Below are positions 2 to 37,319 of a stretch of 39,501 bases of DNA, piece after piece. Origin of the DNA: Parcubacteria group bacterium Greene0416_36. GTDB lineage: Bacteria > Patescibacteriota > Patescibacteriia > VMEV01. The number at the start of each line of letters is the position of its first letter. Position 1 is the first letter of the stretch. The position numbers and the translations under genes are program-made. The DNA is taken from NCBI GenBank assembly GCA_007375725.1, contig VMEV01000002.1, forward strand, positions 1 through 39,501, given 5' to 3'. The notes beneath the pieces were generated by a model. It saw only the letters and a list, made by a program, of their open reading frames with translations, was not told the DNA's origin and ran no database searches.

Positions 2-1369
2 GAATTTGTAAAACAGTATCGCTACACCCCCGGCGGAAACCGAACTTGGGATTCGATTTTGGGGGATTATCAGTATTTAGATCCCTCGTACCCTCAAGCG
101 CTCACGAAAGCAGGGGATGTGGAATATGATTATGATGAATCGGGCCAACTGGAATCCAAAGGGGCCGAAGTTTTGAATTGGAATGAAAAGGGCCAAATCG
201 TATCTTGGAAGAAAGGCAATACCGAGGTATTCTACGGCTATGATGCTGGAGGGAATCGGGTGTGGAAGAGGAAGAAAGTGACGAGCGGGGAGGGAGAGAA
301 TCTCTCAGTCGTGGAAACGAAAACGATGTATTGGAGCGGGGATTATCGTATCTTGGAAAATGGCAATATAGAAAAAGAGTTTGAGTGGGGATTGGTGAGG
401 TGGGTGGATTTATCGCGCCATAGTCCCGCAACAGGCGGGACGACGGCGGATTTAAATGGCTCGTTGGAGACTTATTTCTTGGATCCCGCCAAGACCGTAT
501 TGGGCAAGTTTGATTCTACTGGGATATGGACGGATTTATCGCACCGTAGCTTCAGCGAAGGCGGAATTACGGCCTATGGCGAGAAAGCGAACTCCTCCCA
601 TGGCCCTCGTCCCTTCGCCGGCCACATCCACGAAGACGAAAGCGATCTCTTCTACATGAACGCGCGTTATTATGATCCGGCGATCGGCCGTTTCGTGAGC
701 CCCGACCCCCTGTTCTCCGGCTCGCTGGGCAAATTAGCCTTCGACACCGCCCAGGTCAACCTCTACTCCTACGCGAAGAATAACCCGAAGAGGTATACCG
801 ATCCGACGGGGTATGTTGGATTACCTGTCTTTAATATGTTAGTGAGTCGGCCGGGGTTACGATTTGGCTGGAGAATGTTGAGTGAGGGATATTTAGGGCA
901 GATGAATGGATATGATGTTTCAAGGCAATTGATGAATCATTCTTTACAAGACAACCCAAAACGTATTTTTGCAACAGATACTAATGAATATAAGCCGATT
1001 GTTGATTCTGTAAGAAAATCCCCTGAATATCAGTCTTTTGTTTCTGGTAAAATAAAAGCTTTAGAAAAATTAGGAAGAGACTATGCTTGGCAGATGTATG
1101 ACGGTCAGGATACTCTAGAATTCAACAAAAGTAGGGATTTACTTTTAGGTATTCATGGCACTCATTGGACGATATTTGAAGCTATGAAAAAAGATGGAAA
1201 TTGGAATATTCATATGTTCATTCATGATGAATATAATTTTGAGGCGAAATCATTGAAAGATAATCCATCTTTAGATACCCTGGCAAATAATATAGCCTCT
1301 TTGAGTGAGGATGCTGGTGTAATCAAGCCTTACGCCATAGATATAAGATTTAACGATAAAACCAAATGA
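2..1369 (+). CDS. RHS repeat-associated core protein, C-terminal part with variable toxin-like tip (5' end cut by window edge)
   Basis: Frame is open to the window edge (EFVKQYRYTPGGNRTWDSILGDYQYLD...). YD-repeat motifs (YDYDESGQLESKG, FYGYDAGGNRVWKRKK) and RHS core motif ARYYDPAIGRFVSPDPLF...NLYSYAKNNPKRYTDPTGYVG, followed by an AT-richer unique C-terminus. Confidence 0.9.
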   Translation, partial: EFVKQYRYTPGGNRTWDSILGDYQYLDPSYPQALTKAGDVEYDYDESGQLESKGAEVLNWNEKGQIVSWKKGNTEVFYGYDAGGNRVWKRKKVTSGEGENLSVVETKTMYWSGDYRILENGNIEKEFEWGLVRWVDLSRHSPATGGTTADLNGSLETYFLDPAKTVLGKFDSTGIWTDLSHRSFSEGGITAYGEKANSSHGPRPFAGHIHEDESDLFYMNARYYDPAIGRFVSPDPLFSGSLGKLAFDTAQVNLYSYAKNNPKRYTDPTGYVGLPVFNMLVSRPGLRFGWRMLSEGYLGQMNGYDVSRQLMNHSLQDNPKRIFATDTNEYKPIVDSVRKSPEYQSFVSGKIKALEKLGRDYAWQMYDGQDTLEFNKSRDLLLGIHGTHWTIFEAMKKDGNWNIHMFIHDEYNFEAKSLKDNPSLDTLANNIASLSEDAGVIKPYAIDIRFNDKTK

Positions 1370-34099: not shown

Positions 34100-34132
34100 A
34101 TTGTTTTAAAAAAAATTATTCAATACAAAAAT

Positions 34133-34846
34133 ATGGAAGTGAAATTCAATCTCAATCGCCAAACAATCATGGAGGTCTTGGTGATACTTCAATTGATTCT
34201 TTTGGTGGTATTTGGGATCAAGTTGTGGGGTTTGTCCAGTAAGCTCGAAGATGCTTCCATTGGAGGCAAAGTAGCGGTGAACAAAAACGTGCCCACGCCA
34301 GCGGGTGATCTGCCCAATACACCTCCTGCCAAAGTGGATATTAAGATTGACGATGAGGATTATGTTTTGGGAGATCCCAATGCTCCCGTGACCTTGGTGG
34401 AGTTTTCCGATGTCGAGTGTCCTTTCTGCGGACGCCATCATCCGACCATGAAACAGATCATGGAGAATTACCCGGGAAAGGTGAAGTGGGTCTATAAGCA
34501 CTATCCATTGCCTTTCCACCCTATGGCTGAGCCGGGTGCTCTCGCCGTGGAGTGTGCGGGTGAACAGGGGAAATTTTTTGAATACCTAGATATTCTCTTT
34601 ACCAATCAGACCACCCTTTCGGCCGATAATATGAAGAAATGGGCCAAGGATCTGAAACTCAATACCACAAAATTCAATTCCTGCTTTGATTCCAAGAAGT
34701 ATCTCTCTAAAGTGCAAAAAGACACCCAAGAAGGCGCGCAATACGGCGTCGAGGGTACCCCCGCCACCTTCGTCAACGGCCAGCTCGTCTCCGGTGCCGT
34801 TCCCTACAGCCAGTTCTCGGCTTTGATTGAGGGGTTGATCAAATAG
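34133..34846 (+). CDS. DsbA-like thiol:disulfide oxidoreductase, membrane anchored
   Basis: VTLVEFSDVECPFCGRHHPTMKQIMENYPGKVKWVYKHYPLPFHPMAEPGALA...YGVEGTPATFVNGQLVSGA. Confidence 0.92.
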   Translation: MEVKFNLNRQTIMEVLVILQLILLVVFGIKLWGLSSKLEDASIGGKVAVNKNVPTPAGDLPNTPPAKVDIKIDDEDYVLGDPNAPVTLVEFSDVECPFCGRHHPTMKQIMENYPGKVKWVYKHYPLPFHPMAEPGALAVECAGEQGKFFEYLDILFTNQTTLSADNMKKWAKDLKLNTTKFNSCFDSKKYLSKVQKDTQEGAQYGVEGTPATFVNGQLVSGAVPYSQFSALIEGLIK

Positions 34847-34858
34847 GGATTTACTAAA

Positions 34859-34900
34859 CAAAAAAGTAAGGGCGTATTGCAATACGCCCTTACTTTTTTG
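34859..34900. terminator. Perfect palindrome/bidirectional terminator
   Basis: CAAAAAAGTAAGGGCGTATTG|CAATACGCCCTTACTTTTTTG. Confidence 0.85.
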
Positions 34901-34921
34901 TTTGATTTTTTTAGATGCATA

Positions 34922-34948
34922 ATATATAATATATGAAATATTATATAT
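34922..34948. promoter_or_regulatory. AT-only inverted repeat, candidate TA operator
   Basis: ATATATAATAT-ATGAA-ATATTATATAT just upstream of the antitoxin start (34959). Confidence 0.55.
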
Positions 34949-34958
34949 AGATTCATAT

Positions 34959-35207
34959 ATGTTTAAAATCGTGACCGTGTCCGAGGTGCAGAAAAAAATA
35001 GGCCAAATGGCCAAAAATGTTAGATATAATGAGATTTTAGTTACCAGCAGGGGAAAAGGCAGCATGCTTATTCTTCCTTATTTTGAAGGCTGCGATGATT
35101 TTGTGTCAGAATATCGTGAGAATTATGAGATGTCTGTCAATCGGGAGAATTTAAAGAGAAAATATAGAGAATCTATGAAATCCGGTAAAGGTACATTGGT
35201 AATTTAA
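34959..35207 (+). CDS. Phd/YefM-like antitoxin candidate
   Basis: VSEVQKKIGQMAKNVRYNEILVTSRGKGSMLILPYFE; 82 aa; upstream of a RelE/ParE-like ORF. Confidence 0.7.
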   Translation: MFKIVTVSEVQKKIGQMAKNVRYNEILVTSRGKGSMLILPYFEGCDDFVSEYRENYEMSVNRENLKRKYRESMKSGKGTLVI

Positions 35208-35210
35208 AAT

Positions 35211-35483
35211 ATGGTTGTTTTTTTATTTACCAAAAAATCAGAGAAGATTTTTGAATCTCTTCCTGAATGGGTACAGACACGAATGGCGAATAAGCTCGTG
35301 TCCCTTAAAGATCACGAAGAAATTTTTAAGATTTTAAAGCCTCTTGTTGATTATGATTTGGCTACTCACAGATTGAGAATAGGTGATTATCGTCTGATTT
35401 TAAGTTTGAAAGAGAATCGAAAATATCGTGCCGAATTTTGGGTTTTGGATGTTGGCCACCGTAAGGATATTTATAAGAGTTGA
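35211..35483 (+). CDS. RelE/ParE-family toxin candidate
   Basis: LFTKKSEKIFESLPEWVQTRMANKL...LRIGDYRLILSLKENRKYRAEFWVLDVGHRKDIYKS. Confidence 0.85.
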   Translation: MVVFLFTKKSEKIFESLPEWVQTRMANKLVSLKDHEEIFKILKPLVDYDLATHRLRIGDYRLILSLKENRKYRAEFWVLDVGHRKDIYKS

Positions 35484-35525
35484 TTTGCCGGAATTTTTTT
35501 TGTAATATCAGGTCATCGTAACTTT

Positions 35526-35611
35526 GGAGAGTTCGCATAGTGGCCTAGTGCATACGCTTGGAAAGCGTACAACCCTAATAAGGTTCGAGAGTTCGAATCT
35601 CTCACTCTCCG
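35526..35611 (+). tRNA. tRNA-Ser (anticodon GGA, 35560-35562)
   Basis: Acceptor GGAGAGT/ACTCTCC; anticodon stem-loop TACGC-TTGGAAA-GCGTA; long variable arm; T arm GAGAGTTCGAATCTCTC. 3' CCA not encoded. Confidence 0.95.
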
Positions 35612-35616
35612 CCTTC

Positions 35617-35694
35617 GCCCCGCAAAAATGCGGGGCTACGGCGAGACACAGTCCGCCTTCGCCTCGCCGAAGCGCGCCTTAGCCGGCGGGGCCA
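35617..35694. repeat. GC-rich palindromic/hairpin cluster downstream of the tRNA
   Basis: GCCCCGC-AAAAAT-GCGGGGC, then GTCCGCCTTCGCCTCGCCGAAGCGCGCCTTAGCCGGCGGGGCC. Confidence 0.6.
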
Positions 35695-35798
35695 AATCCT
35701 TATTGACTTATTACTCCAGATGACCTATAATGGAGTTAATTGTTGCTGCAAAGTAGCAAGCAAAGTCGATTTTTTAAGACACAAGTAATCTCACAACT

Positions 35799-36002
35799 AT
35801 GACAGGTACTATCAAGACCTTGACTGCGAAGGGATTTGGATTCATTGCTCGCCCAGGCGAAGCAAAGGATTTATTCTTTCATTCGAAGGAACTCCAGGGT
35901 GGAGTGACTTACGAAAGCCTCCAAGTAGGCCAGACAGTCTCTTTTGAAGTGACTGAAGGTCCCAAAGGCCCAGCCGCTACCAATGTGCAGCTCGTTGGCT
36001 AA
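35799..36002 (+). CDS. Cold-shock domain protein
   Basis: TGTIKTLTAKGFGFIARPGEAKDLFFHSKEL...VGQTVSFEVTEGPKGPAATNVQ. Confidence 0.95.
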   Translation: MTGTIKTLTAKGFGFIARPGEAKDLFFHSKELQGGVTYESLQVGQTVSFEVTEGPKGPAATNVQLVG

Positions 36003-36023
36003 TATTAGCCAGCCGCACTAGGA

Positions 36024-36059
36024 AAAATCGCCCCGACGTGTGTCGGGGCGATTTTTTTA
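36024..36059 (+). terminator. Rho-independent terminator after the cold-shock gene
   Basis: AAAAATCGCCCCGACGTGTGTCGGGGCGATTTTTTT. Confidence 0.92.
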
Positions 36060-36069
36060 AGAAAATCCT

Positions 36070-36645
36070 ATGAAGATATCATCCGCGAAATTTATAAAAG
36101 GCATGGTGGGGCCGGATCCACTGATGAAGGATGGCAAGCCTCAAGTGGCTATTATTGGCAGATCTAATTCAGGGAAATCCAGCTTGATCAATTCGTTAGT
36201 CGGTGTGGAGGGACTAGCCAGAACCAGCGCTTATCCTGGGCTCACTCGTGAGCTTAATCTTTTTTTGATCAATAAATCTTTTTATTTGGTGGATTTGCCG
36301 GGGTATGGTTTTGCCAAAGGCTCCATGGAAGACAAGGAAAAGATTCATTCTTTGATTGGCGGCTATTTATTTGAATCGGGATATGTGCAAAAACGAGTGG
36401 TGTTGGTAATCGATTCTGCCATCGGCATGACCGAGAGCGATTTGGAAATGTTGGGTGAACTCACACGAGAAAAAAAGCATGTCGTGATCGTGGCCAATAA
36501 AATCGACAAAATCAAAAAATCCGACTATGCCCGGCAGATGAGGCTGATCCAAGATCAGGCACAAGGAAATAAGGTTATTCCTTATTCCTCGTTTACGAGA
36601 ATCGGACAGCCTCAGCTTTCGGATGAACTGTTTAGTCAGGACTAG
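36070..36645 (+). CDS. engB: Ribosome biogenesis GTPase YsxC/EngB
   Basis: IIGRSNSGKSSLINSLV, SAYPGLTRELNLFLINKSFYLVDLPGYGFAKG, VVIVANKIDKIKKSD. Confidence 0.93.
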   Translation: MKISSAKFIKGMVGPDPLMKDGKPQVAIIGRSNSGKSSLINSLVGVEGLARTSAYPGLTRELNLFLINKSFYLVDLPGYGFAKGSMEDKEKIHSLIGGYLFESGYVQKRVVLVIDSAIGMTESDLEMLGELTREKKHVVIVANKIDKIKKSDYARQMRLIQDQAQGNKVIPYSSFTRIGQPQLSDELFSQD

Positions 36646-36672
36646 AATATTGAAAATGAGGGGTTATTTTGT

Positions 36673-36693
36673 TACGATAACAATATTATCGTA
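36673..36693. promoter_or_regulatory. Inverted repeat touching the start codon of the LysE-family gene
   Basis: TACGATAA-CAATA-TTATCGTA; last base is the A of the ATG. Confidence 0.4.
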
Positions 36694-37319
36694 TGATCCT
36701 CGCCTTATTTTTAGGATTCCTGATCGGTTTATCGGTCTCAGCTCCCATTGGTCCTGTGAGCGTTTTGTGTATCAGGCGAACTCTCGAGTATGGCCGCATG
36801 TCGGGGATGATGTCGGGAATTGGCGCGGCATTGGCCGATACTCTTTATGCGATGGTCGCCGCTTTTGGTCTGACTTGGATATCAGACTGGTTCATCGGTC
36901 ATCAAAATCCTCTGCGAATTTTCGGCGGGATTTTTTTATTATATTTTGGCATTCGCATGTTTAGAACGGACCCCTGTGCCCAAAATCAATGCGAGCTCAA
37001 AGTTCATGTGGCGGAGGATTTTTTCTCGACTTTCATGATCACTCTTACTAATCCGGTTACCATTCTATTTTTCGGCTTCATTTTCGCAATTCTGGGATTT
37101 GGAGTCGCTCATGTGACTTTTTCGTCCGCTTTTTTATTGGTTTTGGGTGTGTTTTTGGGATCTGCCGGCTGGTGGATTTTTTTAAGTGTATTTGTATTTC
37201 GTCTGCGCGATAAAATGGGCCAGCAATTGTTTATGCGAGTGAATCAATGGTCCAGTATTGCTGTTATTTTATTTAGCCTAGGAATTATTGGGAGTGTTTT
37301 AGTCAATTTATTGAAATAA
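36693..37319 (+). CDS. LysE/RhtB-family exporter
   Basis: LFLGFLIGLSVSAPIGPVSVLCIRRTLEYGRMSGMMSGIGAALADTLYAM...ITLTNPVTILFF. Confidence 0.88.
   Translation: MILALFLGFLIGLSVSAPIGPVSVLCIRRTLEYGRMSGMMSGIGAALADTLYAMVAAFGLTWISDWFIGHQNPLRIFGGIFLLYFGIRMFRTDPCAQNQCELKVHVAEDFFSTFMITLTNPVTILFFGFIFAILGFGVAHVTFSSAFLLVLGVFLGSAGWWIFLSVFVFRLRDKMGQQLFMRVNQWSSIAVILFSLGIIGSVLVNLLK

Follow-up and report, generated by a model that had tools for sequence, protein, structure and literature searches.

The repeats described below behave like the Rickettsia palindromic elements (RPEs), among them RPE-1, RPE-4 and RPE-6, short palindromes of a small genome that lie in frame in unrelated protein genes. RPE-4 and RPE-6 are described as CGTC-tagged, with stems of 8–9 bp and a CCA tail, and GTAG REPs are located within genes of several bacteria, most of all in Opitutus terrae (PMC3733652). 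MITEs and the elements derived from IS200-IS605 are likewise non-coding, hairpin-bearing and dispersed.

The stretch of DNA analysed here (the window, 39,501 nucleotides of Parcubacteria group bacterium Greene0416_36) begins within an RHS gene in which the first-pass annotation had reported two palindromic repeats, apparently inserted in frame and reminiscent of RPEs. It had also related to them a hairpin cluster at 35617-35694. The features on which the present analysis bears are as follows.

2..1369, forward strand: C-terminal part of an RHS/YD-repeat protein frame (open frame of 455 aa, cut by the contig start)
406..412, forward strand: left GGATTTA of the direct repeat around copy 1 (direct reading)
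409..450, forward strand: element copy 1 in the RHS frame (covariance model, E=9.3e-9; absent from the paralogue)
448..454, forward strand: right GGATTTA of the direct repeat around copy 1 (direct reading)
535..565, forward strand: element copy 2 in the RHS frame (covariance model, E=3.7e-7; paralogue 21 nt shorter here)
35526..35611, forward strand: tRNA-Ser, anticodon GGA (Rfam tRNA match; ARAGORN on locus L011)
35608..35650, reverse strand: element copy 3, its GGCGGA end overlapping the tRNA-Ser 3' end (covariance model, E=1.3e-8 for 35607-35651)
35651..35697, reverse strand: degenerate palindrome with a GCGAAGGCGGA end as in copy 3, head to tail with it (direct reading)

Both RHS repeats are present in the open frame, whose domain matches (TEN_YD-shell and RHS_repeat) are weak and below curated cut-offs, and both are translated in the same frame, as WVDL-SRHSPATGGTTADL-NGSL for copy 1 and WTDL-SHRSFSEGG-ITAYG for copy 2, just as had been noted. 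Their extents had been drawn too generously, the conserved unit covering 409-450 and 535-565 and the preceding GGA belonging to the flank. Copy 1 reads TTTATCG-CGCCATAG-TCCCGC-AACAG-GCGGGA-CGACGGCGGA, that is 42 nt or 14 codons, and copy 2 reads TTTATCG-CACCGTAGCTTCAGCGAAGGCGGA, 31 nt. The relationship of the cluster at 35617-35694 to these repeats was borne out as well, since it comprises a full copy on the minus strand and the degenerate palindrome; a direct repeat of 77% identity, at 35603/35647, links the two.

A paralogue of the RHS gene on contig C11 of the same genome, with 89% identity over 268 residues and a length reduced by 63 nt, is precisely empty at site 1, where it is devoid of the 42 nt (WVD[LSRHSPATGGTTAD]LNGSLE in the window versus WVD-SNSSLE). 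In five other genomes of the phylum the RHS homologues lack the copy 1 segment, in a stretch that is length-variable, one of the five having an unrelated Pro-rich stretch at this site. As judged from the alignments, these comparisons show copy 1 to be a clean 42-nt insertion relative to the paralogue. The GGATTTA repeat that flanks it may be due to chance, because it equals the element's own end plus its start. At site 2 the difference amounts to 21 nt (WTDL[SHRSFSE]GGITAYGE in the window versus WADLGGITAYGE in the paralogue), or 7 codons, and distant homologues are intermediate in length. Exceeding the paralogue in length but not reaching that of the window, they fit a gain in the window as well as a loss in the paralogue, and the site 2 difference could represent either. 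The proposal of in-frame insertion therefore stands for site 1, with its empty paralogue and with unrelated host genes elsewhere, and is left with two readings for site 2. Positions 1-99 of the window are identical to positions 2144-2242 of the paralogue's locus (L182), whose contig ends where the RHS contig starts. As the contigs meet at the same base and the first 99 bases are identical, the assembly breaks at the RHS repeat, and the N-terminal part is missing from both RHS genes.

The genome-wide search that had been suggested returned the exact 5' half, GGATTTATCGCNCCNTAG, only at the two RHS sites of the 1.03-Mb genome, and looser forms revealed further copies. The general form CCGCCNTCG-N8-32-CTANGGCG gave eight matches, versus none for the reversed pattern, and a covariance model built from 30 copies gave 27 matches at E<=0.1, 20 of them below 0.01. 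Counted by these searches, the genome harbors about 20 copies. The consensus is YTTRTC-N(0/1)-CGCCRTAG-[variable stem-loop]-CGAMGGCGGA, in which YTTRTC, an optional base, CGCC and R-T-A-G precede the variable stem-loop, and C-G-A-M and GGCGGA follow it. The outer stem CGCC/GGCG hardly varies, nor do the pairs T-A and G-C, and there are conserved mismatches of R opposite M and of A opposite G; RTAG, located within the outer stem, is invariant in alignment A2. R and M co-vary across copies (G with A in 78, A with C in 38, A with A in 18 and G with C in 1; Fisher p=1e-18, a value to be read with the relatedness, hence non-independence, of the copies in mind). The inner stem is variable in length and varies with compensation, with 28 double-change cells (0 of 500 shuffles), a signal that is lost when the partner is slid. 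The edges are sharp: information falls to background beyond YTTRTC and the final A, and in 47 copies from the phylum conservation runs from about position -6 before CGCC to one base past GGCGG. The element has short inverted ends, TCCGCC/GGCGGA. A search of Rfam 15 returned no family covering it, the tRNA being the only match within the window, and a literature search covering few subscription journals found no description of its sequence, of its encoded peptides or of such elements in the Candidate Phyla Radiation (CPR).

Other genes of the same genome carry copies as well. The leucyl aminopeptidase on contig C14 (PF00883) has one in frame, translated SSRRSPATRGTEADK, within a 16-residue insert that is absent from 9/9 homologues, and in a two-domain glycosyltransferase (C12:102174) a copy occupies, again in frame, the linker separating the domains. 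In the RNase P RNA gene (rnpB, L198) a copy directly follows GAGGAAAGTCCGAAC, where relatives of the class have unrelated hairpins. It is identical at 41 of 44 positions to an intergenic copy at C12:76544 and the flanks are unrelated, a near-identity such as spread inside the genome would predict. The hairpin after GAGGAAAGTCCGAAC differs in nearly every class member (L191-L220), and new helices of RNase P may originate from mobile hairpins. Three further copies in this genome (L004, L009 and L014, at C13:263, C8:10814 and C17:2816) lie within degenerate 7-nt arrays of the GCCTAAA type. The short form of the element, CTTGTCCGCCGTAGCTTTAGCGAAGGCGGA, is stop-free in four of the six frames by direct reading, and the encoded peptides (LSRHSP..., SAFAKATADK, RRSFSEGG and LSAVALAKA) look like hydrophilic linkers. 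These two properties probably explain why the element is tolerated inside genes; frame-shifting or gene-disrupting insertions are presumably removed by selection.

Beyond this genome, a strict pattern matched 73 times in 39 of 380 genomes of the phylum, versus about 10 times for the reversed control. A scan of named genomes yielded at least 114 loci, with about three expected by chance under an assumed uniform base composition, a figure that serves as a guide only. Hosts among the matches listed are Patescibacteria, Babeliales, Verrucomicrobia, Lentisphaerae, Kiritimatiellae, Planctomycetes, Bradyrhizobium, other Alphaproteobacteria, Deltaproteobacteria, Bacteroidetes, Acidobacteria and others. 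Relative to two solved TopA sequences, the TopA protein of a phylum member (G103) has a 16-residue insert at the element. A DinB-type polymerase (G035) likely carries an in-frame copy in the region that separates its thumb from its C-terminal domain. In Verrucomicrobia, SelD-like and peptidase-like proteins, identified solely by eye, are likely further cases. Many of the long frames that run over copies in GC-rich genomes are probably spurious.

Some copies are nested in other palindromes. That of the glycosyltransferase interrupts a palindrome of a second family exactly at its centre, between GTAGGGGCACAGCGCG and CTGTGCCCCTAC. This family is found uninterrupted at 18-19 places in the genome (reversed control, 0), and at C3:17910 an element whose inner stem differs interrupts one of its members at that very point. 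Other palindromes often have the element between their arms in Bradyrhizobium and Verrucomicrobia. Outside Patescibacteria and Bradyrhizobium, 14 of 73 sites are hairpin tips, versus about 4 for random positions; in Patescibacteria tips are not enriched (3 of 26, versus 1.7 expected). Because of the latter result, the targeting of hairpin tips was rejected as a general rule and kept as a partial one.

Perfect palindromes of the second family (GTAGGGGCACAGCGCGCTGTGCCCCTAC) fill the genome, and one of them sits exactly in the middle of a longer palindrome that is also perfect (C16:23983-24025). In Verrucomicrobia (L057) and Verrucomicrobia subdivision 3 (L162), the element lies between the arms, GAGAGGGTGGCCGA and AGGCCGGGTGAGG, of another type of repeat. 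Both are apparently cases of double nesting, one repeat inside another and the two inside a gene, in long frames and in frame.

At eight loci, including that of copy 3 (L011, window 34109-37143, with L044, L045, L047, L052, L072, L098 and L108), the element and the 3' end of a tRNA have a few bases in common, and in 8/8 the tRNA is tRNA-Ser. There, the TCCGCC end of the element coincides with the last acceptor bases, the discriminator and the CC of the tRNA. Several of these copies are preceded by GCGGACTKTGTC, as in a tandem arrangement.

The fixed ends, the fixed outer stem, the paired but variable inner stem, the scattered surroundings and the clean insertion of copy 1 argue that the repeats probably belong to a mobile palindromic element of about 30-50 nt that is non-coding and present at dispersed sites. 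A reading without mobility, in which convergent hairpins (terminators, tRNA trailers, RNA structure) or a piece of the RHS core would be kept for the sake of the stem, would account for the strong covariation of the stem, and a conserved trailer or terminator might explain the eight copies at tRNA-Ser 3' ends of different bacteria. It is nevertheless highly improbable for the family, as identical fixed ends are found in rnpB and in coding genes that are unrelated, the genome itself has an empty site, and near-identical copies have unrelated flanks. This reading is contradicted for RHS copy 1 and could apply to the tRNA-Ser subset. The inverted ends TCCGCC/GGCGGA might also denote a very small MITE, mobilised by a DDE transposase that duplicates about 7 bp of the target, and direct repeats of 7 bp do flank 12 of 97 copies, versus 1.8 expected. 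This weak excess would fit a duplicating mechanism; some of the 12 cases lie in pre-existing repeats or palindromes, and the 7-nt arrays at three copies may inflate the signal. The clean pairs of empty and filled sites (RHS site 1 and the GTAGGGGC palindrome) show no target duplication, and 30-50 nt is far below known MITE sizes, which makes a MITE a poor candidate.

That the element might be a classical REP, with RTAG as its GTAG tag, moved by a RAYT (a Y1 HUH transposase) that the lineage has since lost, is a more serious proposal, which we nonetheless consider unlikely. GTAG or ATAG does occur beside an imperfect hairpin, at the foot of the inner one, and Opitutaceae are among the hosts in the matches listed, O. 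terrae being rich in intragenic GTAG REPs (PMC3733652). Y1_Tnp matches are found in 177 of the 380 genomes of the phylum, with a slight bias toward carriers of the element (24/39 versus 153/341 of the others; Fisher p=0.06). Against this, Y1_Tnp (PF01797) is absent from the present genome, rated 100% complete, despite its about 20 copies; the strict element pattern was found near 0 of 20 Y1 loci of the phylum, with flanks of up to 1.5 kb; and the GTAG of the element is inside the outer stem and not at a terminus. With no PF01797, a weak co-occurrence and no flanking copies, Y1/RAYT is unsupported as the mover in this host. Targeting by similarity to the element's own ends was also rejected as a general rule: the left flanks show a slight similarity (10 flanks with at least 4/6 matches, versus 4.2 expected) and the right flanks none. 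RHS site 1 (GGATTTA) and tRNA-Ser (TCCGCC) look like instances of such targeting.

For the movement of the hairpin, we tentatively envisage a single-strand mechanism. The hairpin itself would be the mobile unit: folded as a single strand, it would be copied or excised, probably in the course of replication, and mobilised by an enzyme acting in trans. It would then be inserted at a second site exposed as a single strand, in some cases a further hairpin's tip, with no consistent duplication of the target. A broader and rather speculative proposal is that a single family of mobile hairpins, present in about ten phyla, inserts at exposed single strands, including the centres of palindromes, which gives rise to nested repeats, that it decorates proteins, RNase P RNA and tRNA-Ser ends, and that it spreads without a Y1 transposase.

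The likeness to RPEs thus holds for behaviour, as in-frame insertions are matched by empty homologues for RHS site 1, leucyl aminopeptidase and TopA, and does not extend to the sequence or architecture of RPE-4 and RPE-6. In contrast with these two, described as CGTC-tagged (PMC3733652), the element has the ends YTTRTC/GGCGGA, a variable inner stem and a CGCCRTAG...CGAMGGCGGA frame. Its hosts include Patescibacteria and members of many other phyla, and the present host is not a Rickettsia. With GTAG REPs, including the intragenic ones of O. terrae, it shares a location in coding sequences and Opitutaceae hosts, and may share a GTAG tag next to an imperfect hairpin; it differs from them in that its GTAG is within the outer stem and in the want of a Y1/RAYT in the genome or of its strict pattern near the 20 Y1 loci. 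It might be identical to one of the 24 GTAG families of the same work (PMC3733652). From MITEs and IS200-IS605 derivatives it differs in that it is far shorter than MITEs and in that no partner IS, consistent target duplication or target tetranucleotide was found for it. The element behaves like RPEs or intragenic REPs and is unusual in its host range, its nested insertions and its setting in Patescibacteria.

To our knowledge, how gene-invading palindromes such as RPEs move has been an open question since their discovery. In the present family, boundaries are fixed, a single genome has both the empty and the filled version of a gene, and the stem covaries. Its hosts belong to many phyla and include the culturable Bradyrhizobium, and it is inserted at the centres of palindromes whose uninterrupted forms occur in the same genome. 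Finally, segments derived from such repeats can be part of annotated proteins and of RNase P RNAs in Patescibacteria.
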